Positions 36,243-61,795 of a DNA stretch of 64,000 nt are shown here, piece after piece; positions within the stretch are counted from its first letter, which is position 1; every line of letters starts with the position of its first letter. The stretch spans positions 1-64,000 of the forward strand of contig JARVJU010000001.1 in the NCBI GenBank assembly GCA_029775965.1, read 5' to 3'. The notes beneath the pieces were generated by a model that searched no databases, was not told where the DNA came from, and saw only the letters and a list, made by a program, of their open reading frames with translations. The position numbers and the translations under genes were made by a program. The DNA comes from Nitrososphaeria archaeon (GTDB lineage: Archaea; Thermoproteota; Nitrososphaeria; Conexivisphaerales; DTJL01).

Positions 36243-36791
36243 TTGTCCAAAGAAACGTTGAGTCAATTCATGACTTACCTCAAGAATAGAGAGAGGTCAT
36301 TCTTAATGACCCCGGTAAAGGTAACTGCAAGAAAGGATATACCAGAGGCCAGACTTACTACCTTCACCCTTCCTGAACTGAAGGAAGGCAGCAGTATAGA
36401 GGTGCCTAGATGGGTTGCAGAAACGCTGGAGGAGAACGGCTTTGCAACAAGGGAAGAAGAAAGTGTAGAATCAGAACTGAACAGGGCACTTCAAAGGGAA
36501 AGGCTCCAGGGTTCTACACAGCTTTCTCCTATCAAGAGTGATTTCTACCTGAGGCTGAAGAGGTACCTTGTATTGATGAGGAAAAGAGGAAAGGCTGATC
36601 CGTATTACAACAAGCTCCTGTCCACAGCTTCTAGTCTGATAACTCTCAGACTTAGCAAGATGGTTGTCCTTGTCGGGCTAACATCTCAGCCAGAGCCTTA
36701 TTCTCTTCTCTCGCCTGAGGAGCTTGCTCTCTTCAGGGAGATCAAGGAGTTGGTTCTGCTTTGGAGAAATATGACACTGGAAGGTGATTAG
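36243..36791 (+). CDS. GINS complex subunit (Gins15/51-like)
   Basis: This is a 182-residue protein starting at TTG. A helical A-domain (LKRYLVLMRKRGKADPYYNKLLSTASSL) and a small beta B-domain with LTTFTLPELKEGSSIEVPRWVAETLEENG are visible. GINS holds MCM and the Cdc45/GAN homologue together in the archaeal replicative helicase. The gene sits immediately before mcm, the classic archaeal arrangement. Identification rests on context as well as sequence. Confidence 0.8.
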   Translation: MSKETLSQFMTYLKNRERSFLMTPVKVTARKDIPEARLTTFTLPELKEGSSIEVPRWVAETLEENGFATREEESVESELNRALQRERLQGSTQLSPIKSDFYLRLKRYLVLMRKRGKADPYYNKLLSTASSLITLRLSKMVVLVGLTSQPEPYSLLSPEELALFREIKELVLLWRNMTLEGD

Positions 36792-36792
36792 C

Positions 36793-39700
36793 ATGGCAGG
36801 GCAATCTGCTGGTAGTATTACAGAGCAACTTGACCTATTTCTAAGAAGTTTCAGGTCCTCTGATGGTTCCATCAAATACATTTCAAGAATAGACAGGATG
36901 ATTGCTGATGGCGGTTCTTCCGTAATAATAGATTATGAAGACCTACTTTCCTTTGATGCTGAACTTGCAACAGTACTTATAGAGAACCCTGACAACATTC
37001 TGAGATATTTCAGAGATGCAGCCATTCAGGTTGTAAGAACGGAGAATCTCTCCTATGCTGAGAGGGTAGAAGATCAGCTGCAGGTCAGGATATCCGGCCT
37101 CATAGACAGATTGCCTCTAAGGGGGGTCTCAGCCAAGTACCTTGACAGGCTTGTTTCAATAAGCGGCATGGTTGTCAGAACATCCGAAGTCAAGCCAAGG
37201 GCAGTTGTAGCAGCATTTAGAGACCCTCAGGACCATGTGACCCTTGTTGCTCAAACTGGAAACCTGCTCAGGAAGCCTGAAAAGTGCGCTGCATGTGATG
37301 AAACAAGAAACTTCGAACTTGATACTAGGCTCTCAAAATTTACTGATTATCAAATAATACGTCTGCAGGAGCTGCCAGAGGAGCTACCTCCCGGTCAGCT
37401 GCCTCAGTCAATAGATGCAGAATTGCTTGGCGACATAGTAAACAGGGCTAGACCTGGAGACAGGATAATAATAACAGGTATTGTGAGAGCAGATCCTGAG
37501 AGTTCCATAGGTGCTGGTAAGCAGACAGTATTCCGAACAAGACTGGAGACAAACCATGTCGATGTAAGGGGGAAGGAGATGGAGCAGATAACAATAACAC
37601 CTGAAGATGAAGCTGCAATAAAGAAGATAGCTGAATCTCCCACAGCATACGAAGACCTTGTCAGGTCTGTCTGTCCAACCATATTTGGTTTTGAGACTCA
37701 GAAAGAAGCCGCACTGCTCGTACTTGTAGGAGCACCCCAAAGGGCTCTACCCGACCAAACGACGATCAGGGGAGACCTGAACCTCCTCCTTGTTGGTGAT
37801 CCTGGATGCCTTGTGTATGATGAGAGGGTTGTCTTATCTGATGGTGCAATAGTCAAGATAGGGGAGCTGGGTAATGAGCATTTACAGAAGATAGATGTAA
37901 AGCTGTTATCAGATGCATCAGGCAGGAGTGATGATGCAACAACATTTCATGTTTACAAAGGGCAAAAGGTCATGGAGGTGATAACGGAAACAGGTAAAAG
38001 TATCAAGGGCACATACAATCACCCTCTGCTAACAGTAGCATATGTGAACGGATTGAAAAGGTATGAATGGAGAAGACTGGATGAGCTCAGAATAGGAGAC
38101 AGAGTAGTTACAGTCAGCAGACTGCCATGCAGAATAAAGAACTATATTTCCTCATCTTTCGTGCAATATTCTGATAATGAATCCATCCGTCTGCCTGATA
38201 CTGTAACACCATTGCTCGGCTCATTCCTTGGATACATGACTGGCAAGGGTTATGTAAATGAGCATAATTTCACCTTTGGAGTAATATCAACAGATACAAA
38301 GTATGATGATGGATTTGTAAGTTTGACAAGGAAGATCTTCGGCCTTGAACCTGTTAAGCATGGAAGAATTATAGAGTTCTCCAGCAAAAATGTATCTGCT
38401 AACATAAGGTTCCTAATCCAGAAGCGTGTTCCTGAGCTTATCTTAAGGTCAGGAAACAAAGTTGTATCCAGCTATCTCCTCTGGCTTTACAGAGCTGCAG
38501 GAAGAATCTCTGGCAATAGTGATCATAAGGCAATCCTCCTCCATTCCGAGAATACAGAGCTGCTAAGGGATGTACAGCTTCTTCTTTTAAGGTTCGGAAT
38601 CAGGTCAAAAATATCAGGCTGTGAGCTTATGATAACAGACCTGGCTTCAGCTAAGAAATTCTCTCGTAATATTGGTCTTTTATCCAAGAGGGAGCTGAAG
38701 GGTTTCTGCGAAGAGTCATTCCTGCCTGATTCTGAAAGAATAGAAAAGGTGATCAAAGATGTTGAATATGCTGATGTCTACGATGTAGAAGTACCAGCTA
38801 CCCATATGTTTATAGCTAATGGTATAATATCACATAATACTGCTAAAAGCGAACTTCTCAAGTATATAGCAAGATTAGCTCCCAGAGGTCTTTATACCAC
38901 TGGAAGAGGAAGCACAGCAGCTGGTCTGTGCGTCAGTGGTGACACATTGCTTGTTACCTCAAACGGCATAAAAGCTATCAAGGATGTTGTGGAAGAGCAG
39001 CTGCATGGCAAGGAATTAAAAAAGACAGATGGAATAACAGTTTGCGATAATCCTGGCACTGTTGGTTTGGTAATACCATCCCTTGCAGAGCAATTCAGAT
39101 ATCTTGAGCTGGATCGTTCTTTGGTTGCTCTGAAGACACTTTCCCTGGAATCATTCAAGGCTGGCAAGGCAACACAGTTTTACAGGATCAAGGCTCAAAA
39201 GGTAATAAGGATAAAGACAGAGCTGGGCAAATCTTTAGCCTTAACAGCAGAAACACAAATTATGTGTTATGACATATCTAATGGTACCTGCTTCTGGAAA
39301 CGTGCTGACGAAATTAGAGCTGGAGATCATCTGATCTTTTCGACCAAGCTTCCTGAACTTGCAAGCAATATGTTCAAACCTGTTGAATTTATTGATGACT
39401 CTGATTTCATAGTCATGCAGAAGAGTAAAATTGAACAACTGCTTGCATCTGTCAAAATAAGCTCTGAAGAATCAGGAAGTGCTAATTGTATTCAAGGGTA
39501 CAGGCAATACAGCAGGAGAAAGGATCTATTGCTTGTAAGGCTGAAGGATATTAAACTGGCCTGTAAAAGATTTGGTCTGAATCTGGAGGAGATGCTCGGG
39601 TCAAAGATTCTTGTAGTATCTTGCATTGGCAATCGCAAACAGGTAGAGTGGAGTATTCCAAGCGAAGCTGATGGTATAATGGAATTCCTGGGATACTTTT

Positions 39701-42700
39701 ACTCTCGCGGCTCTTTGAGTCTGGACAAAAAGAAGGGAGAATTTGTCACATTTTCAAGCAGAAAGTATGCTGATTGCAGAAAATTTGCAAAGGAAGCTGC
39801 AAGGCTCTTTAATGTTAAAGCAATAATAAAGCAAAATGCAGGGCACTTTACAGCAGTATTGCACAACAGAACAATCGCCTTGATTCTAGCACATTATGGC
39901 CTATCTCAAGAATATGATTCATCTTTCATAAACAATGCACTAACTGCTGCTCCAAACAGATTATTATCTGCCTTCCTGCGCGGATTCTTTTCTGGCAGTA
40001 AATGCATCTTTGGTAGAGGGTTCATCTCTTTAAATGTAAATGGTGAGGCAGCAAGACAGGTGGACCTATTGCTTCAGAGGTTCGGTATCATATCAAGTCT
40101 TCATGAAAGAAATTGTAAGAATAAAGATAAGCCTGGCAGAACAGAAGAACTTTACGAAATCAGAATATCTGATAGAGAATCTCTCAATTTGTTTGCATCC
40201 AGTATTGGCTTCTCAGCTAAGAAGAGAAATACTGCATTACAAAGGTCTATCAGCAGGAAGAATGACTCTGAATCTCATACCAGTTTTGTTAGGGCTGGAG
40301 AGAGCAGCATAGCTTTGCCCGTGCTTGAGATAAATGCAGAGCAGGCTGATACAGTTTATGACATAACTGTGGAAGAATCCCATGCATTCCTGGCAAATGG
40401 ATTCGTTGTGCATAACACTGCTGCTGTGGTCAAGGAGAAAAATGGCTTGATGATGCTCGAAGCTGGAGCAGTTGTACTTGCTGACCTGGGTGTTGCATGC
40501 CTATTGCCTGAGACACCTATAGTGTACAATGACAAAATAGTAAAGATAGAGGATATAGCAAAATACGCATCTTTCGAACCAGCAATATCAAAGGGAGAAA
40601 AGGTGGAGGTAGGCTTAGCAACTGGACTGGTATATTCTTTTGATGCAGATGATAAATTCACCAAAGAAACGATAGCCACTGTGATCAGGAGAAAATGGTA
40701 CAATGGTGAAATTATATCCTTTAAGCTGAAGACAGGAGACATATTGAGAGTTACACCTGATCATATGCTGCTGGAGGGTAGCAAGATAGCATGGAGACAG
40801 GCATCTGAATTCAAAGTAGGTGAATCCATAATCTCTCCTCTTACTTTACCTGCTACGGAGCAGAAGACGTGGATATGGGATCTGCTACCAGATGATTTCC
40901 TGGTAAACCTTACAGAAGATGGAAAGATCAACCTTGCTACAGTACTTGGCAGACCGCCTGAGACAATACAATCTTCGATTCTTCTTAAAGAGCTCAAAAC
41001 TCTGATCCGCCAAGCGGGGATGGAGGAGATATGGAGGCAAAGAATAAACACATACTGCACGACCGGGCTCATAGAACCATTCCTAACTCCAGAAGTATCC
41101 TATGAAGTCGGTTACCAAGGCTCGATTCAGGATCCTAACCATCAATCTGCAGATAATAGTCTGCGCAGCAAGACTGTTAAGAGTATAGCTGATAAGATGT
41201 TTTCAAATTCCATGTCATACCTTCTCTCCTTAAACACGGATAACCTTTCATCCTTCTTTGCTGGACTGATGGATGCATCTGGTTTCGACCCAGACTCCAG
41301 TATTCTTTACAGGAGTAAAGATAAAATGTCATGTACCAACATTGCACTTGTATCAAGAAGGCTGGGTATACTTGCAACAGTAGAAGATGGCGATGAGAAT
41401 GTGGTCAAGATAGATACAATAATAGATCATAGCCTGTTTGGTAAAGTAGAAGGAAAGCTAAGAAGACTGAAGATATTCCATGGCGATAGATATTCAGCCC
41501 TTTTCGTTAACGAAGCATCCTCTTCACAGCAGAATGCTTCCCTGACTGCACTCGAGGGTTACTTTCTTAATTCCATAGTATCTATTTCAAAGGAGAAGTA
41601 TGAAGGCTATGTATATGACCTTCACGTTCCACAATTTCATAATTATATAGCAAGTGGAGTGGTTGTAGAGAACTGTATAGATGAATTCGATAAGATGAGA
41701 CCTGAAGACAGGGGAGTACTGCATGAAGTTATGGAGCAGCAGTCTTACCATCCATCTACAGAGATTGAGCTTGCATCAGGGAGAAGAGTGAGAATAGGGG
41801 AGTATGTTGAGAATATCTTTGCCTCCATGAAGGGAGAAGTGATTCATGGATTGAACTGTGAGATTATACCATTAAAATCTGGTGAAGCCATATACTCATA
41901 TGACTTTGAATCGATGCATCCTAGATTAACCAGAATAAGCAGGGTGAGCAGGCATTTTGCCCCAGATACCTTTGTGAAGATAGAATTTTCAAACGGCAGA
42001 AGCATAATAGTCACACCGGAGCATCCCATATTCATTTATCAAAATGAAAGGATAGAAATTGTAAGGGCGGATGAAGTGAGGGAATTTTCGTTGATTCCAG
42101 CTCTGCTTCAGCTTAATGTTGAAGGAAGTTACACATATGCTAGGGAAAGTCTGGAAAGAATAACCATAGTAAGAAAGGAAATTGTACAAAACAAAGGTGT
42201 ATATGCTACAGACTGGGTCTATGATGTTACAGTAGAACCATTCCACAATTTCATAGCTGATGGTATTATACTGCATAATACAGTTTCTGTAGCAAAAGGT
42301 GGAATAGTAGCAACTCTCAACGCAAGAACATCCATAGTGGCTGCTGCAAACCCTTTGCTCGGCAGGTATGATCCGTACAAGAATATATACGAGAATGTCA
42401 ATCTTCCCATACCTCTTCTCTCTGTAGGTCCTGATGAAGAAATAGTTGTCAGAAAGGATGGTAAAACAATGCTATTACCAATAGCAAAACTGGTGGATGG
42501 CTTCTACAATGGTAAGGATGAAGGTTTCCCAGTAAGTGTTAGAGGCTTGCAAATAGCATGCATGGATGAGAATCTAAATGTTGTCTGGGGTGATCTTGCA
42601 TATGTCTTCAGGCACAGGGCAGAGGGAAGACACTTCAGGGTCTTCTATGGCAAAAAAGACCTGATTCTTACAGCCGGGCATTGTGTCTACACAGTTCATG

Positions 42701-43623
42701 AAGGAAGAATAATTCTGAAGCAAACTTCACAGCTGAAGGTTGGAGACCTCCTTCTGGTCAGCGATAAATCATTTGAAACAGATAGCATGGAAAATGTTGC
42801 AGAAGGAAACAATCAGATTGCTGTCATGGCACAAAAGATCTCCGGTCTGCATTATGAGCCTATAAAGAAGATTCAAGAGCTTGCTGAGGATGAGAATCCT
42901 GAATTTGTGTACGACCTTTCCGTTCCTGGGCTGGAGAATTTCCTGGCCGATGGTGTCGTCTGTCACAACACAAGGTTTGATACCATATTTATTGTGAGGG
43001 ACAACCCTGATAGAGCAATTGATGAAAAGCTTGCTACTCATATACTCGAAACACACAGGAGCAGGCAGTTCGTCTCCCCGCCTCCAATAGATTTTGAATT
43101 GCTGAGAAAATACATTGTATATGCAAAGAAGATAGAGCCTGTACTGACACCTGAAGCAGAGAAAAGATTGCTGGAATTTTACCTGGAAATGAGGTCGCTA
43201 GGTGCACAGGAAAATATGATCACAGTGACACCAAGACAGCTGGAAACACTGATAAGGCTCAGCACAGCAAGAGCCAGAGTTCTGCTGAGGGATAAGGTGA
43301 CTGAAGAAGATGCTCAGCAGGCCATCTTGCTGATGAGAAAGATGCTGAGTACGGTCGGAATAGATGTGAAGACTGGGAAGATAGACATAGGGGTAATACA
43401 GGGCAGGCCCGCCAGTGAGAGGACATTGATTGACTTAGCGCTTGAAGTATTCAAAGGACTGCAGGGTCCTGAAAGGACGCCTGTGCATGTGAAGACTTTT
43501 GTCGATGCCCTGGAGAAGACAGGAAAATTTAACAGGGAAGAGGCAAGAAAGATGATAAATACATTATACAAGCTGGGCCAGATATATGAAATAAAAACAG
43601 ACTATTACAGCAGAATAGCTTAG
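36793..43623 (+). CDS. mcm: Replicative helicase MCM interrupted by five inteins
   Basis: The frame codes about 2,276 residues from the ATG at 36793; a GTG at 36784 is also in frame. Removing five inteins leaves a normal MCM of about 682 residues. It has an N-terminal domain with a single CAAC pair, an AAA+ core with Walker A GDPG-TAKS, Walker B ACIDEFDKM and the arginine-finger RFD, and a C-terminal winged helix. MCM unwinds DNA at the fork. Insertions lie in Walker A, after STAAGL, in Walker B, after EQQ and in LL-TRFD. All five must splice for activity. Downstream hel308 follows after 28 bp. Confidence 0.96.
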   Translation: MAGQSAGSITEQLDLFLRSFRSSDGSIKYISRIDRMIADGGSSVIIDYEDLLSFDAELATVLIENPDNILRYFRDAAIQVVRTENLSYAERVEDQLQVRISGLIDRLPLRGVSAKYLDRLVSISGMVVRTSEVKPRAVVAAFRDPQDHVTLVAQTGNLLRKPEKCAACDETRNFELDTRLSKFTDYQIIRLQELPEELPPGQLPQSIDAELLGDIVNRARPGDRIIITGIVRADPESSIGAGKQTVFRTRLETNHVDVRGKEMEQITITPEDEAAIKKIAESPTAYEDLVRSVCPTIFGFETQKEAALLVLVGAPQRALPDQTTIRGDLNLLLVGDPGCLVYDERVVLSDGAIVKIGELGNEHLQKIDVKLLSDASGRSDDATTFHVYKGQKVMEVITETGKSIKGTYNHPLLTVAYVNGLKRYEWRRLDELRIGDRVVTVSRLPCRIKNYISSSFVQYSDNESIRLPDTVTPLLGSFLGYMTGKGYVNEHNFTFGVISTDTKYDDGFVSLTRKIFGLEPVKHGRIIEFSSKNVSANIRFLIQKRVPELILRSGNKVVSSYLLWLYRAAGRISGNSDHKAILLHSENTELLRDVQLLLLRFGIRSKISGCELMITDLASAKKFSRNIGLLSKRELKGFCEESFLPDSERIEKVIKDVEYADVYDVEVPATHMFIANGIISHNTAKSELLKYIARLAPRGLYTTGRGSTAAGLCVSGDTLLVTSNGIKAIKDVVEEQLHGKELKKTDGITVCDNPGTVGLVIPSLAEQFRYLELDRSLVALKTLSLESFKAGKATQFYRIKAQKVIRIKTELGKSLALTAETQIMCYDISNGTCFWKRADEIRAGDHLIFSTKLPELASNMFKPVEFIDDSDFIVMQKSKIEQLLASVKISSEESGSANCIQGYRQYSRRKDLLLVRLKDIKLACKRFGLNLEEMLGSKILVVSCIGNRKQVEWSIPSEADGIMEFLGYFYSRGSLSLDKKKGEFVTFSSRKYADCRKFAKEAARLFNVKAIIKQNAGHFTAVLHNRTIALILAHYGLSQEYDSSFINNALTAAPNRLLSAFLRGFFSGSKCIFGRGFISLNVNGEAARQVDLLLQRFGIISSLHERNCKNKDKPGRTEELYEIRISDRESLNLFASSIGFSAKKRNTALQRSISRKNDSESHTSFVRAGESSIALPVLEINAEQADTVYDITVEESHAFLANGFVVHNTAAVVKEKNGLMMLEAGAVVLADLGVACLLPETPIVYNDKIVKIEDIAKYASFEPAISKGEKVEVGLATGLVYSFDADDKFTKETIATVIRRKWYNGEIISFKLKTGDILRVTPDHMLLEGSKIAWRQASEFKVGESIISPLTLPATEQKTWIWDLLPDDFLVNLTEDGKINLATVLGRPPETIQSSILLKELKTLIRQAGMEEIWRQRINTYCTTGLIEPFLTPEVSYEVGYQGSIQDPNHQSADNSLRSKTVKSIADKMFSNSMSYLLSLNTDNLSSFFAGLMDASGFDPDSSILYRSKDKMSCTNIALVSRRLGILATVEDGDENVVKIDTIIDHSLFGKVEGKLRRLKIFHGDRYSALFVNEASSSQQNASLTALEGYFLNSIVSISKEKYEGYVYDLHVPQFHNYIASGVVVENCIDEFDKMRPEDRGVLHEVMEQQSYHPSTEIELASGRRVRIGEYVENIFASMKGEVIHGLNCEIIPLKSGEAIYSYDFESMHPRLTRISRVSRHFAPDTFVKIEFSNGRSIIVTPEHPIFIYQNERIEIVRADEVREFSLIPALLQLNVEGSYTYARESLERITIVRKEIVQNKGVYATDWVYDVTVEPFHNFIADGIILHNTVSVAKGGIVATLNARTSIVAAANPLLGRYDPYKNIYENVNLPIPLLSVGPDEEIVVRKDGKTMLLPIAKLVDGFYNGKDEGFPVSVRGLQIACMDENLNVVWGDLAYVFRHRAEGRHFRVFYGKKDLILTAGHCVYTVHEGRIILKQTSQLKVGDLLLVSDKSFETDSMENVAEGNNQIAVMAQKISGLHYEPIKKIQELAEDENPEFVYDLSVPGLENFLADGVVCHNTRFDTIFIVRDNPDRAIDEKLATHILETHRSRQFVSPPPIDFELLRKYIVYAKKIEPVLTPEAEKRLLEFYLEMRSLGAQENMITVTPRQLETLIRLSTARARVLLRDKVTEEDAQQAILLMRKMLSTVGIDVKTGKIDIGVIQGRPASERTLIDLALEVFKGLQGPERTPVHVKTFVDALEKTGKFNREEARKMINTLYKLGQIYEIKTDYYSRIA
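37807..38838 (+). other. MCM intein 1 (Walker A site, 344 aa)
   Basis: Starts with Cys (CLVYDERVVLSDG), ends with SHN and is followed by Thr, splitting GDPG and TAKS. The block B motif is TYNHPLLTV; block F is VYDVEVPATHMFIANG. Two LAGLIDADG-like helices are present (LGSFLGYMTGKGYV and SSYLLWLYRAAGRI), but the catalytic acidic residues appear as K and A. The homing endonuclease is therefore probably inactive while splicing residues are complete. Confidence 0.93.
38929..40416 (+). other. MCM intein 2 (STAAGL/TAAVV site, 496 aa)
   Basis: Starts with CVSGDTLLVTSNGIK, ends VHN and is followed by Thr. Block F reads VYDITVEESHAFLANG. The block B region is LTAETQIMC, where the usual TxxH His is replaced by Gln, a notable change for N-terminal splicing. 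LAGLIDADG helices are degenerate (FLGYFYSRGSLSLD, SAFLRGFFSGSKCI). It is the longest intein of the five and contains an extra insert before the endonuclease part. Confidence 0.92.
40498..41673 (+). other. MCM intein 3 (Walker B site, 392 aa)
   Basis: Starts with CLLPETPIVYNDK, ends VVEN and is followed by extein Cys, splitting DLGVA and CIDEFDKM. Block B is VTPDHMLLE; block F is VYDLHVPQFHNYIASG. The penultimate residue is Glu rather than the usual His. One LAGLIDADG-like helix remains (FFAGLMDASGFD, with Ser where the second Asp is expected). Confidence 0.93.
41743..42279 (+). other. MCM intein 4 (Ser1 mini-intein, 179 aa)
   Basis: Inserted between MEQQ and TVSVAKGG. The first residue is Ser (SYHPSTEIELASGRR), block B is VTPEHPIFIY, block F is VYDVTVEPFHNFIADG, and it ends LHN before Thr. 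There is no room for a homing endonuclease. Ser at position 1 is a rarer nucleophile than Cys. Confidence 0.92.
42421..42969 (+). other. MCM intein 5 (Ser1 mini-intein at the arginine finger, 183 aa)
   Basis: Inserted between IPLL and TRFDTIF. The first residue is Ser (SVGPDEEIVVRKDG). Block B is LTAGHCVYT. Block F is VYDLSVPGLENFLADG, with Glu where His is usual, and it ends CHN before Thr. No endonuclease is present. The boundary is inferred from the conserved LPIPLL-(S/T)RFD motif of MCM. Confidence 0.9.
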
Positions 43624-43651: not shown

Positions 43652-45820
43652 ATGAGAAAGACAATGCTGATAGACCACCTGCCTGTCTCACAGGAGCTTA
43701 AAGAGATATTACAGTCCTTGGGCTACAGGGAGCTGTATCCAACTCAATCAGAAGCCGTAGAGGCAGGTCTCCTAGATGGCAACAATCTTCTTCTGTCCAC
43801 ACCCACAGCATCAGGAAAGACACTTGTTGCTATGATAGCTGCAGGAAAGACACTATCCGAGACAGGGGGTAAGGTTGCTTACATGACGCCGCTGAGGGCT
43901 CTAGCATACGAGAAGTATGAGGAGTTTCTTGCTTTGAGAGAGCTTTCGAAGCCTGATGGCAGAAGGGTAAATGTCATGGTTTCTACCGGGGATTACGATT
44001 CATCAGGCGAAGAACTCAGAAAAGCTGATGTACTTATAATGACAAATGAAAAATTTGATTCATTAACAAGGCAGAGACCGACATGGATTAAGAGTTTCTC
44101 AGTATTTATCTTCGATGAAGTTCACCTTCTGGGTGATGGTGATAGGGGTGCCACTTTAGAAATAGCAATATCAAAGGTGAGAACAATGAATCCATCGGCA
44201 CAGCTCATCTCTCTTTCTGCAACTGTTTCCAATGGTGGGCAGATAGCTGAATGGTTAGATGCAAAGCACGTTGACCTGAACTGGAGGCCTGTTCCCCTCA
44301 AAGAAGGTGTGGCATACGAAGGCAAAATATTCTTTTCCGATGGAACAGTCAATGAATATACTGCAAGCTCTCCTATGGCTGTGATAGATCTCGCAGTGGA
44401 TGCAGTGGATAATGGTGGCCAGGCGCTTGTATTTACTGAAACAAGAAGAAGGGCTATCAGTCTTGCAATAAAGGCTGCTCCAATAATAGCGAAACATCTT
44501 TCTTTCGATGAGTCGGCAAGATTGAGGCCGATTAAGAGCCAAATTCTTGACGCAGCAGAAGAAACAGAGTTAACAAGAATTATGGTAGATGTTGTTGCAA
44601 AGGGTGTTGCATTTCATCACGCAGGACTTGCAGCAGCACACAGAAGAATTGTTGAAAAGGCCTTCAAGGAAGGTCTGATAAAGGTCCTGTTTGCAACCCC
44701 AACCCTGGCTGCGGGTGTGAACACACCAGCCAGACGTGTAATACTTGCAAGTTTATCCAGATATGATTCTTCAGAAGGAATGAACAAGCCCATAAGTGTG
44801 ATGGATTACAAGCAGATGTCTGGTAGAGCAGGGAGACCGAAATACGACCCTTATGGAGAGGCAATATTACTAGCAAGCAATTATGAGGATATACAACCAC
44901 TCATAGACATATACATCAAAGGAAGGCCAGAAATGATAAGATCCCAGCTTGCTTCAGCCAATGTCTTCAGGAAGCATACACTTGGTATTATAGCTGGTAA
45001 TAATAAAATTAATCAGCAAGACCTGATGCACTTCTTTGCAAACACATTGCTGGCAAAGCAGTACGGTGAGCATAAGGCTATGGGGCAGCTTGAAAGCTCA
45101 CTATCTTACCTTGAAGAGAATGCACTTATAACAAGGAGCAGGAATGCATATCTGCCCACTAGACTGGGCAAAAGGATAGCCACTTTATACATAGACCCTG
45201 AAACAGGTCTGGAGTTTGTGAAAATCCTGAGAAGGATTGGTGATACTGAAGAAGACCTCACAGCGGGCTTTCTCGAAGTTATTGTATCAACCCCCGATTT
45301 TGAGCCGAAGATGCAGCTCAGGGCAAAAGATTATGGCCAAGCAGAAGTATTTGAGGAAGTGCATGGTAGCAGGATGCTCCTGCCTGCAGATGAAGAATGG
45401 TTCAGAAGCGTAATGGTGCTCTATTCATGGTTAAATGAGAGTACCGATCAGAGGATAATGGAGCTGTATGGTGTTGAGCCTGGTGACTTGCACAGATGTG
45501 TCGAGATGGCTGAATGGCTGGCCTACAGCTTCAGAGAACTGGCAAGGCTGATAGGTTACAATAAGACAGGAAGAACTCTTGACAAGCTGAGAATAAGAAT
45601 CTCTGCAGGGATTAAGGAGGAGCTGATACCTCTTGTTCTGCTGGAGGGTATAGGAAGAGTCAGGGCAAGGAGTCTCTTTGATAATGGTTACAGAAGTATA
45701 GAGAGGATAGCCTCAGCAGACATTGCACAGTTGAGCAGAGTGCCAAAGGTAGGAGATGCCATTGCCAGAAGAATAAAGAAGCAGGCAGTAGAACTTGTTG
45801 CACGAGGCAGTAATGCATGA
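43652..45820 (+). CDS. hel308: ATP-dependent DNA helicase Hel308
   Basis: This is a 722-residue SF2 helicase. It has a Q-motif-like YPTQSEA, Walker A STPTASGKT, DEVH box IFDEVHLLGD, motif III SLSATV, motif VI QMSGRAGRP, a winged helix, the ratchet helical domain and a C-terminal helix-hairpin-helix (VLLEGIGRVRARSLFDNGY). Hel308 works at stalled forks, removing lagging strands. Co-located with mcm and followed by an ATGA-coupled gene. Confidence 0.95.
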   Translation: MRKTMLIDHLPVSQELKEILQSLGYRELYPTQSEAVEAGLLDGNNLLLSTPTASGKTLVAMIAAGKTLSETGGKVAYMTPLRALAYEKYEEFLALRELSKPDGRRVNVMVSTGDYDSSGEELRKADVLIMTNEKFDSLTRQRPTWIKSFSVFIFDEVHLLGDGDRGATLEIAISKVRTMNPSAQLISLSATVSNGGQIAEWLDAKHVDLNWRPVPLKEGVAYEGKIFFSDGTVNEYTASSPMAVIDLAVDAVDNGGQALVFTETRRRAISLAIKAAPIIAKHLSFDESARLRPIKSQILDAAEETELTRIMVDVVAKGVAFHHAGLAAAHRRIVEKAFKEGLIKVLFATPTLAAGVNTPARRVILASLSRYDSSEGMNKPISVMDYKQMSGRAGRPKYDPYGEAILLASNYEDIQPLIDIYIKGRPEMIRSQLASANVFRKHTLGIIAGNNKINQQDLMHFFANTLLAKQYGEHKAMGQLESSLSYLEENALITRSRNAYLPTRLGKRIATLYIDPETGLEFVKILRRIGDTEEDLTAGFLEVIVSTPDFEPKMQLRAKDYGQAEVFEEVHGSRMLLPADEEWFRSVMVLYSWLNESTDQRIMELYGVEPGDLHRCVEMAEWLAYSFRELARLIGYNKTGRTLDKLRIRISAGIKEELIPLVLLEGIGRVRARSLFDNGYRSIERIASADIAQLSRVPKVGDAIARRIKKQAVELVARGSNA

Positions 45821-58012: not shown

Positions 58013-61000
58013 GTGGATGCTTATTTGCCGCGGTATAAGACTACAAGTGAAGCGTTAAGGATAATCACAAATCAAGAGCAGATAAGAAACTTTGGCGTTA
58101 TAGCTCATGTCGACCATGGAAAGTGTGTGAGTGGTGATTCACTCATAACTCTTGCTGACGGGCGCATTGTGGAGATAGAAAAAATCTACAGTTCAACAAA
58201 TTCTGATTCAGAAACTGTCAGGTTGGAGCAGCCTGTAACTCTTGACTCCATGGACCCTCTTAATCTTATCATTCAGGATATGCAATCAACCGCCATCTGG
58301 AGATTGAAGTCTGACAGACTGATAGAAGTGACACTTTCTGATGGTAAGAGTGTCAAGGTCACACCTGAGCATCCATTTTACATACTGAGTCAATCAGGAA
58401 TGTTGAAGTCTTGCAAGGCAGAAGATATCAGGATCGGAGACAGAGTTGCAACTCCTGCTGTATTAAAGAGTGTAGGATGCCAGCTTGAGCAATTAAAGTC
58501 TGAAATCCTGAAGCTTGTAGGCAGAGATAGCAACTGGTATGTCTTACCAGACAAGTCTATCCTTGATAGGCTTGGGATGCAAGATGATGGCTTGCCTGTA
58601 AAGCTGAGCCATATTTTGGATGCTGCTAAACTGAACAGAATAACGCAACTGGAGATCTACCAGAATATTAAACAATTACAATACAACGATAAAGAGCTGC
58701 TTGAACCCATAAATCTGCCACAGGACTCTGTTCAATTTGAAGAGCTATTTTACGAAGCAGGGTTAGTATATGCATTGAATGTCAGGGATAATAGGCTGAG
58801 AAATAAGGTGTTCGAGGATCTTTCTTGCATACAAGAAAGAGATATTGGTCAGAGGTCTTCGCTATACCACCTTCTTGTATCTTTGTACAGTGAAGAACAG
58901 CAGGGTCTGGAACTCTTTGGCATGGCGGAAAATAGGTATCTTGCATCATTTCTCGGAGGACTGTACGATGCCCTTGCAGAAGTCAGATCAGGAGAGATAA
59001 TTCTTCGATCAGAGTCGAAGAAATTATCAACAATTCTGGCACTCTTCCTTTTGCGATTTGGAATAGCAGCAAGGGTTGTTGATGTGAACGGTTCCCATTG
59101 TTTAGTTATCCCTCGCAGCCATGTGCCTGTGTTCAATGATAATATAGGTTTTAGCCGCAGACATATATCAGAGGAAGCAGCAGGGCAGGAGAAAATACAC
59201 CTTTCCCCTCTGGAAATAAAGAGCATAAGAATTTCTCTTGCACTGGATGCTGATGACATATCGCCTGAATATGGCTATATAGAAGAGGGGAAAATTGACA
59301 TTAATTCCTCTAATCTGCAAAAGATAGCATCTCTATTCGAACAAGAATTACTTGATCCAGAAAAAATAAGAGAAAGGGTACAAAAAAGAATACGTTTGCT
59401 AAAAGAGCCAGAATCATCTGCAGAGCTTTCTGAGCTTATTAAAGACGGAATTCTCGGCAATGATTCGAAGTTAACTGCATACGGAAGACAGATATTGCTT
59501 GCATGGAATAGCATCCTCAGCTCAGATAAAACACTTGAATCAATCAGCTACATTTTGAGACAGTGGAAACTTCTGGCAAAAGGAGAAATAAAGTTCGAAG
59601 AAGTGATAAAAAAGAGTGCACTAAAAGGTTCTTTTACTGTGTATGATTTAACAGTTCCAAGCACTCATACCTACGTAGCAAATGGTATAGTTGTTCATAA
59701 TACCACAACCTCCGACTCCCTGCTTGCTGCATGTGGTATGTTAAGCCCCAGTGTAGCAGGTCAGGCGCTGGCGCTGGACTATATGGAGCTGGAGCAGCAG
59801 AGGCAGATGACAATCAAAGCTGCAAACGTCACCCTTTACTATGAGCATGAGGGAAAGCCGTATGTCTTTAACATGATAGACACACCAGGTCACATAGACT
59901 TTACAGGTAAAGTTACGAGGAGCTTAAGAGCTATAGACGGTGCTGTTGTCGTTGTTGACTCTGTAGAGGGGGTTATGACGCAGACAGAAACAGTGACAAG
60001 GCAGGCGCTTGAGGAGAGAGTAAGACCAGTACTTTACATAAACAAGATAGACAGACTTGTGAAAGAGTTAAGACTCACACCTGACAAGATGCAGTCCTGG
60101 CTAGCTAATATTATAAATGACTTCAACAATCTGATAAACATATATGCTGAGCCAGAATTCAGAGACAAGTGGAAGGTAAGCATACAGGATAACAGCGTAG
60201 CATTTGGCAGTTCCAAGGATAAATGGGGCTTCAACCTAGCAATTGCAAAGAAGAGTGGAATAAGCTTTAAGGATGTATATGATGCCTACACTGCTGGAGA
60301 CCCTTCCAGCCTGCAGGAAAAGGCGCCGCTGCATGAAGCAATATTGACCATGGTTATAAATCATCACCCTCCTCCTCATGTAGCGCAATCATACAGAATT
60401 CCAAAGATATGGAAGGGGGACATAAACAGTGAAGTTGGCCAATCTTTACTGAAGTGTGATCCGAACGGTCCTATAGTGATGATGGTAACCAATGTAATAG
60501 TGGACCCACAGGCAGGGATAGTGGCCACAGGCAGGCTCTTCAGCGGCACAATCAGAGATGGTGATTCTGTGTATCTCATAGGAGCAAAAAGGGAGGGAAG
60601 AGTGCAGAGTGTGAACATGTACATGGGGAACGTCAGGGAAATGGTAGGAATTCTTCCCGCAGGCAATATACCAGCACTTCTTGGACTGGAGTATGCAAGA
60701 TCGGGAGAGACACTTTCTTCAATAAGAGAAATAGTGCCTTTCGAAGGTATCAGGTATGTTTCGGAACCTGTTGTCACCATAGCTATAGAGTCCAAGAATC
60801 CCAGAGACCTTCCAAAACTTGTAGATGCTCTTCAAAGGATGCATATTGAAGACCCCAATCTTATAGTTAGAATTAACGAGGAATCTGGAGAGACACTGCT
60901 TTCAGGTATGGGTGTTCTGCACCTTGAAATAGCCACTACAATGCTACAGCAGCAGGGACTTGAAATAATCACAAGTCCACCACTGATCAATTACAGAGAA

Positions 61001-61795
61001 ACAATTCTGGGCAAGGCAGGGCCGATCATGGCAAAAAGCCCCAACAGGCATAACAAGATATACATTCGTGTTGAGCCTTTATCAGAAGAGATAGTAGGCA
61101 AGATCAGGTCAGGAGAAATCAGCGAAACAACAGATAGAAAGGGGATAGCAAAGATACTGAGAGATATGGGGTGGGATTCTGATGAAGCAAGAAGTGTAGT
61201 TGCAGTTGATGAAAAAGGAAATATGCTGCTTGACCAGACAAAGGGTGTTCAATTCATGCAGGAATCGATGGATTCATTGAGGGCTGGGTTCGAAGATGTA
61301 ATGAACAACGGTCCATTAGCATATGAATACTGCAGAGGGGTAAAAGTGATAATACATCACTTTGTACCGCACGAGGACCCAGCTCACAGAACTTATGCAC
61401 AGCTGATGCCTGCAGCGAGGAGGGCGATCCTTGGAGCTATGCTGAGCGCTCAGCCTACGTTGCTCGAACCGATACAAGGGATTGAGGTAAAGTGTGGAGT
61501 GGATCAGATAGGAGCAGTAGCAAGCGTTCTGTCCAGCAAAAGAGGGAAGCTTCTTAACATGGAGCAGAAAGAAGTACTTGCTATAGTAGAAGGAGAAATA
61601 CCCGCTGCGGAGACCTTTGATTTGAGCGAGGTAATGAGAGGAGCAACTGCTGGCAAAGCTATGTGGAATATTCATTTCAAGTCCTGGCAAGCTGTTCCTG
61701 CATCTCTGCAGAAACAGATAATAACGCAGATAAGGAAGAGAAAGGGATTGCCAGAAGAGGTTCCGCCTGCAAGTGATTTCATAGATACAGAGTAA
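58013..61795 (+). CDS. Elongation factor 2 (EF-2) interrupted by an intein
   Basis: These 1,260 residues start at GTG. Removing a 526-residue intein leaves an EF-2 of about 734 residues, the normal length. It contains G1 AHVDHGK-TTTSD, G3 DTPGHIDF, G4 NKID, the domain IV end with the conserved His region, and a C-terminal WNIHFKSWQAVPASLQ. EF-2 moves tRNA and mRNA on the ribosome. The intein splits the phosphate-binding loop, so no GTPase activity exists before splicing. Confidence 0.96.
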   Translation: MDAYLPRYKTTSEALRIITNQEQIRNFGVIAHVDHGKCVSGDSLITLADGRIVEIEKIYSSTNSDSETVRLEQPVTLDSMDPLNLIIQDMQSTAIWRLKSDRLIEVTLSDGKSVKVTPEHPFYILSQSGMLKSCKAEDIRIGDRVATPAVLKSVGCQLEQLKSEILKLVGRDSNWYVLPDKSILDRLGMQDDGLPVKLSHILDAAKLNRITQLEIYQNIKQLQYNDKELLEPINLPQDSVQFEELFYEAGLVYALNVRDNRLRNKVFEDLSCIQERDIGQRSSLYHLLVSLYSEEQQGLELFGMAENRYLASFLGGLYDALAEVRSGEIILRSESKKLSTILALFLLRFGIAARVVDVNGSHCLVIPRSHVPVFNDNIGFSRRHISEEAAGQEKIHLSPLEIKSIRISLALDADDISPEYGYIEEGKIDINSSNLQKIASLFEQELLDPEKIRERVQKRIRLLKEPESSAELSELIKDGILGNDSKLTAYGRQILLAWNSILSSDKTLESISYILRQWKLLAKGEIKFEEVIKKSALKGSFTVYDLTVPSTHTYVANGIVVHNTTTSDSLLAACGMLSPSVAGQALALDYMELEQQRQMTIKAANVTLYYEHEGKPYVFNMIDTPGHIDFTGKVTRSLRAIDGAVVVVDSVEGVMTQTETVTRQALEERVRPVLYINKIDRLVKELRLTPDKMQSWLANIINDFNNLINIYAEPEFRDKWKVSIQDNSVAFGSSKDKWGFNLAIAKKSGISFKDVYDAYTAGDPSSLQEKAPLHEAILTMVINHHPPPHVAQSYRIPKIWKGDINSEVGQSLLKCDPNGPIVMMVTNVIVDPQAGIVATGRLFSGTIRDGDSVYLIGAKREGRVQSVNMYMGNVREMVGILPAGNIPALLGLEYARSGETLSSIREIVPFEGIRYVSEPVVTIAIESKNPRDLPKLVDALQRMHIEDPNLIVRINEESGETLLSGMGVLHLEIATTMLQQQGLEIITSPPLINYRETILGKAGPIMAKSPNRHNKIYIRVEPLSEEIVGKIRSGEISETTDRKGIAKILRDMGWDSDEARSVVAVDEKGNMLLDQTKGVQFMQESMDSLRAGFEDVMNNGPLAYEYCRGVKVIIHHFVPHEDPAHRTYAQLMPAARRAILGAMLSAQPTLLEPIQGIEVKCGVDQIGAVASVLSSKRGKLLNMEQKEVLAIVEGEIPAAETFDLSEVMRGATAGKAMWNIHFKSWQAVPASLQKQIITQIRKRKGLPEEVPPASDFIDTE
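58124..59701 (+). other. EF-2 intein in the GTPase P-loop (526 aa)
   Basis: Starts with CVSGDSLITLADGRIVEI. Block B is VTPEHPFYI, block F is VYDLTVPSTHTYVANG, and it ends VHN before Thr. A central region has one LAGLIDADG-like helix (FLGGLYDALAEVRSG) in which the closing DG is lost, and a weaker second (FYEAGLVYALNVRD). The endonuclease is likely decayed. Splicing residues are complete. Confidence 0.92.

Follow-up and report, generated by a model that had tools for sequence, protein, structure and literature searches.

The question raised by the first 64,000 nucleotides of contig JARVJU010000001.1 (Nitrososphaeria archaeon, assembly GCA_029775965.1), a stretch referred to here as the window, is how five inteins came to lie in a single mcm gene and why they are still there. 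The gene was recognised by open reading frame calling, by Pfam and by an intein-free homologue (L053/L062) that is 84% identical and aligns without gaps. Two start codons come into consideration, GTG at 36784 and possibly ATG at 36793, and the frame is free of stops up to 43623 (6.8 kb). The gene, its parts and its neighbours are the following (a slash marks the point of insertion):

36243..36791, + strand: GINS-like subunit gene (Sld5/PSF2-like), directly upstream of mcm, overlapping its GTG start by 8 bases; same order in L062
36784..43623, + strand: mcm gene, 2279-amino acid precursor
36784..37806, + strand: extein 1, 341 amino acids, N-terminal domain, OB fold and AAA+ start up to GDPG
37807..38838, + strand: intein 1, 344 amino acids, site 341 (GDPG/TAKS, inside Walker A); Cys1, HN end, +1 Thr
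38839..38928, + strand: extein 2, 30 amino acids (TAKS...STAAGL)
38929..40416, + strand: intein 2, 496 amino acids, site 371 (AAGL/T); Cys1, HN end, +1 Thr; block B TAET without His
40417..40497, + strand: extein 3, 27 amino acids
40498..41673, + strand: intein 3, 392 amino acids, site 398 (GVA/[8 protein letters not shown], Walker B start); Cys1, EN end, +1 Cys
41674..41742, + strand: extein 4, 23 amino acids ([23 protein letters not shown])
41743..42279, + strand: intein 4, 179-amino acid mini-intein, site 421 (EQQ/T); Ser1, HN end, +1 Thr; endonuclease absent
42280..42420, + strand: extein 5, 47 amino acids
42421..42969, + strand: intein 5, 183-amino acid mini-intein, site 468 (LL/TRFD, arginine finger); Ser1, HN end, +1 Thr; endonuclease absent
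42970..43623, + strand: extein 6, 217 amino acids and stop, arginine finger, AAA lid and C-terminal domain
43652..45820, + strand: Hel308-type helicase gene, directly downstream, a marker of conserved synteny

Each site takes the number of the host residue that immediately precedes the intein, and all five lie within 127 host residues. Excision of the five segments in silico yields an in-frame MCM of 685 amino acids (about 76 kDa counted from the ATG) with the junction string GDPG/[51 protein letters not shown]. The boundaries are exactly those drawn in the initial annotation, and its estimate that about 70% of the precursor is intein agrees with the computed 69.9% (1594 of 2279 residues). Pfam found Intein_splicing five times in the precursor (4.5e-79) together with MCM_N, MCM_OB, MCM and MCM_lid, and the host protein has what is expected of an archaeal MCM, namely MCM_N, OB fold, P-loop AAA+ domain and lid, Walker A, Walker B and arginine finger, with a GINS gene adjacent. 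The same gene is found empty in a genome of the same genus (G001; JAKAPW010000003, isolate YF1.bin89), where an intein-free MCM of 688 amino acids runs without gaps across all five sites and reaches 98% identity to the window protein over residues 331-480. Both genomes share the gene order HisS, RFC small subunit, GINS-like gene, mcm and Hel308-type helicase. This syntenic empty allele settles where the junctions lie and which host gene is interrupted.

All five inserts carry the splicing domains of class-1 inteins. Position 1 is Cys in inteins 1 to 3 and Ser in inteins 4 and 5, the +1 residue is Thr except for Cys after intein 3, and the terminal Asn is present in all five; the inserts are in frame, and their removal gives a normal host protein matching intein-free MCM without gaps. 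The profile for the intein C-terminus (TIGR01443) matches every one of them and that for the N-terminus (TIGR01445) four, intein 5 being the one missed. For intein 5, AlphaFold predicted a Hint fold (pLDDT 88.3, pTM 0.82), and the best PDB matches of this model in Foldseek were all mini-inteins, among them PhoCDC21-1. The Hint motifs previously noted in all five inserts have therefore been recovered by profiles and, for intein 5, also by predicted structure.

Two further residues, the block B TxxH and the penultimate His, are usual in inteins and not strictly required. Both are present in inteins 1, 4 and 5. In intein 2 the block B His is missing, and in intein 3 the Asn is preceded by Glu. 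Both traits are common to inteins at the same sites: the block B His is absent from all six aligned site-371 inteins, and the penultimate Glu at site 398 is shared by intein 3 and the intein of L101. Similarly, all three site-468 inteins carry Glu in place of the block F His. Judged from these alignments, the departures from conserved splicing residues are inherited traits of the site families, one of which is known to splice. In the orthologue family of Tko CDC21-1, the block B His is naturally missing and position -1 is Leu, and a compensatory mechanism has been described for these inteins (PMC6333167). Intein 2 has the same two features, which together with its site suggest that it belongs to this family. 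Since same-site inteins share them and natural inteins without the His are known (PMC6333167), the missing block B and penultimate His residues are not disqualifying. The EN end of intein 3 could slow C-terminal cleavage as compared with HN, and from sequence and structural models all five inteins look fit for self-splicing.

The explanation preferred here, and considered highly probable, is that five separately derived, site-specific parasitic inteins were acquired by homing, that their endonucleases decayed and that the inteins are now trapped in an essential mcm gene. Each would have entered independently as a selfish element, its homing endonuclease cleaving one particular site of a still empty mcm allele, and after fixation the endonucleases would have decayed, being dead in inteins 1 to 3 and lost from inteins 4 and 5. 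The precursor is predicted to be translated as a whole, upon which each Hint domain would excise itself and the six exteins would be ligated to a normal 685-amino acid MCM. Splicing would presumably follow the class-1 route, with an acyl shift at Cys1 or Ser1, transfer to the +1 Thr or Cys and cyclisation of the Asn. Persistence would be explained by the lethality of any imprecise deletion in an essential gene, while precise loss may occur. A second mcm was not found in the source genome (93% complete; one mcm only), and replication therefore presumably depends on all five splicing events.

Taken together, the five insertion points lie at better conserved positions than randomly drawn ones (p=0.0002 for the whole protein and p=0.005 within the AAA+ region only), with the signal coming mainly from sites 341, 371 and 468 and more weakly from 398 and 421. 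It had been claimed that every site lies in a conserved ATPase motif. This holds for Walker A, the Walker B start and the arginine finger, whereas AAGL/T and EQQ/T are conserved blocks and not named motifs. The initial annotation suggested that the five splicing events could act as a control point, a reading in which slow or environment-sensitive splicing of at least one intein would gate MCM activity and hence replication. With sites in Walker A, Walker B and the arginine finger, the unspliced precursor is presumably inactive, the splicing domains have been retained although homing looks dead, and conditional splicing has been reported for mycobacterial DnaB inteins (PMC6195587, PMC7360933). 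Nevertheless, this explanation finds no support here and is very unlikely. Within one family, the mcm gene carries none (G001), two (G003; sites 341 and 371), three (G002, Centralia_MAG_53; sites 341, 371 and 421) or five inteins (window), and the lack of any in the same-genus G001 argues against a conserved control function. Retention is explained equally well by the difficulty of precise deletion, and the patchy pattern across archaea is what is expected of selfish elements. A lineage-specific control role may exist. A related proposal, that the five orthogonal splicing domains splice in a fixed order which sets the rate of helicase maturation and are kept by selection for a slow or conditional start-up of replication, is regarded as distinctly unlikely.

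G001 is not an intein-free organism, as inteins are present in several of its other genes. Its mcm may have lost its inteins or may never have been invaded; loss is favoured by the clades that join the window with G002 and G003 at sites 371 and 421. Replacement of the G001 core by an outgroup allele was considered and rejected: the core shares 98% protein but 76% DNA identity with the window and does not look like an outgroup allele, so that no donor can be named. With counts of 0, 2, 3 and 5 in the mcm of one family, gain, decay and precise loss become directly testable.

The state of the endonucleases bears on whether the inteins can still move. In intein 1, the LAGLIDADG motifs read FLGYMTGKG (38224-38250) and LWLYRAAGR (38479-38505), and in intein 2 FLGYFYSRG (39685-39711) and LRGFFSGSK (39976-40002), the catalytic acids being gone from all four. 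In intein 3, the first motif is disrupted and the second reads FAGLMDASG, with D changed to S (41257-41283). Relatives at the same sites have kept these acids (FMGFLTGDG in L058 at site 341, FAGLVAGDG in L086 at site 371, VIGFLFGDG and VAGLMDSDG in L101 at site 398). Inteins 4 and 5 lack the endonuclease region of more than 300 amino acids that is present in L056, L071 and L101. Thus, a LAGLIDADG motif with catalytic acids, as expected of a mobile intein, was found in none of the five, and with dead motifs in inteins 1 to 3 and no domain in inteins 4 and 5, all of them look immobile. It could be argued that at least one intein still homes by a divergent active endonuclease, or that gene conversion carries the whole array along as one unit. 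Inteins 1 to 3 do retain 150-300 amino acids of endonuclease-derived sequence, and the structure predicted for intein 3 (pLDDT 83.2, pTM 0.83), in which a Hint domain is combined with a reduced endonuclease part, has inteins for all its best PDB matches, the closest being a full intein endonuclease. However, the catalytic acids of all recognisable motifs are replaced or lost, which makes ongoing mobility highly unlikely.

How exceptional the gene is was assessed in a survey of about 830 archaeal genomes in five groups, which were samples in that contig-truncated genes were missed, only some long open reading frames were opened and Halobacteria were covered by papers alone. A full AAA+ query listed mostly intein-free genes; suspect genomes were therefore searched again, and from then on the query was the uninterrupted C-terminal region, combined with the length of the open reading frame. 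No other MCM with five inteins was found in the genomes sampled, the maximum elsewhere being four. In the class Nitrososphaeria, MCMs mostly have no intein, apart from scattered genes with one or two, and the contig-truncated mcm of L101 has four inteins (366, 398, 421 and 468). Four is also the maximum in Thermococcales (344, 371, 398 and 421; 115 genomes) and in Asgard archaea (129 genomes), and three in the class of the Desulfurococcales genome L089 (98 genomes) and in the phylum containing Micrarchaeota (87 genomes). Four inserts in L091 and a second one in L197 turned out to be alignment artefacts at weak junctions. A Micrarchaeota-phylum gene (L196) has an intein at host position 407 (DKME/SEDR), which is probably the haloarchaeal MCM-d site.

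Published work gives a similar picture. Haloarchaeal MCM has at most four inteins (Haloferax positions 335, 362, 401 and 415; PMC3972481), and four are attributed to the ribonucleotide reductase of Trichodesmium erythraeum (Liu et al. 2003, as cited in PMC1635734). No gene with more than one intein is listed in a survey of 18 Thaumarchaeota genomes (PMC10643990), and the published mentions of 'five inteins' or 'six inteins' that were examined refer to separate genes or assays and never to one gene. Five is therefore the highest intein count found for any single gene in the survey and the literature examined, which bears out the earlier view of this gene as extreme.

A look at other genomes for the same insertion sites, the check suggested in the initial annotation, showed diverged inteins at each of the five: 341 and 371 in L054 and L055, 421 in L054 and L056, 398 in L061, L071, L073 and L101, and 468 in L071 and L101. 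Site 341 is also used in the Micrarchaeota-phylum genome L197 (GDPG/T) and is not confined to Nitrososphaeria; site 468 was seen in three Nitrososphaeria only. This bears on the concern that the gene might be an assembly artefact or a decayed pseudogene, as the source is a metagenome-assembled genome of 55 contigs. Given the occupation of every site in other, independently assembled genomes, a stop-free frame of 6.8 kb, intact host residues and conserved synteny, such an origin is hardly credible.

To follow the ancestry of the inteins, a tree was built from the splicing regions only of 72 MCM inteins, which represent seven sites. Each of the sites 341, 371, 398, 421 and 468 corresponds to a single well-supported clade, and the site labels need six changes on the tree, which is the minimum for seven sites (mean of 43.9 when shuffled). 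In BLAST, each window intein is likewise closest to the inteins that occupy its own site elsewhere among archaea and not to its neighbours in the gene. The clades of sites 371, 398 and 421 each cover several phyla. As shown by these site-specific clades, the five inteins have separate ancestries, that is, separate invasions and not duplications, and from the known spread of such inteins, homing is the probable route of arrival. That one intein was duplicated into neighbouring sites, as a common Hint fold and the spacing within 127 host residues might suggest, is ruled out by this tree, in which each window intein is joined with strong support to inteins from its own site in other archaea, usually members of different phyla; matches between the window inteins are short and weak.

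Within the tree, the 341 clade is nested in a larger clade with most 344 inteins (support 97/95), and a single lineage has apparently inserted at two positions that differ by three residues. The site-344 intein of L089 (a Desulfurococcales metagenome-assembled genome) starts with Ser and lies on a long branch apart from the other 344 inteins; a second invasion of the Walker A site is possible. Another intein (L101:724-2184) is inserted at GKGS/TAAGL (host 366), five residues upstream of site 371, and is sister to the site-468 inteins.

In comparison with known systems, the haloarchaeal MCM/CDC21 inteins (sites a-d) occupy the same host gene and catalytic domain, with up to four as against five here (PMC3972481). 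By the alignment offset taken from that paper, window sites 371 and 421 would correspond to Haloferax 362 and 415, and sites 341, 398 and 468 fall outside the haloarchaeal four when these are read as host 344, 371, 407 and 421. Thermococcales share sites 371, 398 and 421 with the window, whereas their Walker A intein sits three residues later (AK/S instead of GDPG/T), many of their inteins retain LAGLIDADG catalytic acids, and no arginine-finger intein was present in the genes opened from 115 genomes. Nitrososphaerales archaeon JOPF037 (L101), of the same class, shares sites 398, 421 and 468 and the penultimate Glu at 398. Its four inteins are large, however, with LAGLIDADG acids intact in the recognisable motifs, and there is one at 366 (GKGS/T) and none at 341 or 371; the gene is cut off by the contig edge before host residue 126. 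The Trichodesmium ribonucleotide reductase is also a multi-intein array in an essential gene, in another host protein and with four inteins plus group II introns. The mcm gene of the window has more inteins than any other gene found, and two of its sites, 341 and 468, lie outside the published haloarchaeal set and the opened Thermococcales genes. Archaeal MCM insertion sites now number at least eight, 341 and 344 apparently used by one lineage. The locus is of interest chiefly as an extreme case of known multi-intein genes; five immobile-looking inteins bear on why dead inteins persist, and five divergent splicing domains in one polypeptide are a natural source of orthogonal inteins.

The source genome (G000) is rich in inteins, with 14 in 10 genes (contigs C2, C3, C6, C44, C51 and C55; L001, L003, L008-L010, L013, L015 and L016). 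The hosts include IF-2, eIF2 gamma, RadA, PolB and an Rpb1-type RNA polymerase subunit, as well as A-ATPase A, an Mrp/NUBPL ATPase and a type II/IV secretion ATPase. In the window itself, the EF-2 gene (58013-61795) has one intein of 526 amino acids (58124-59701) at IAHVDHGK/TTTSD, the LAGLIDADG-like motif of which (LGGLYDALA) also looks dead.
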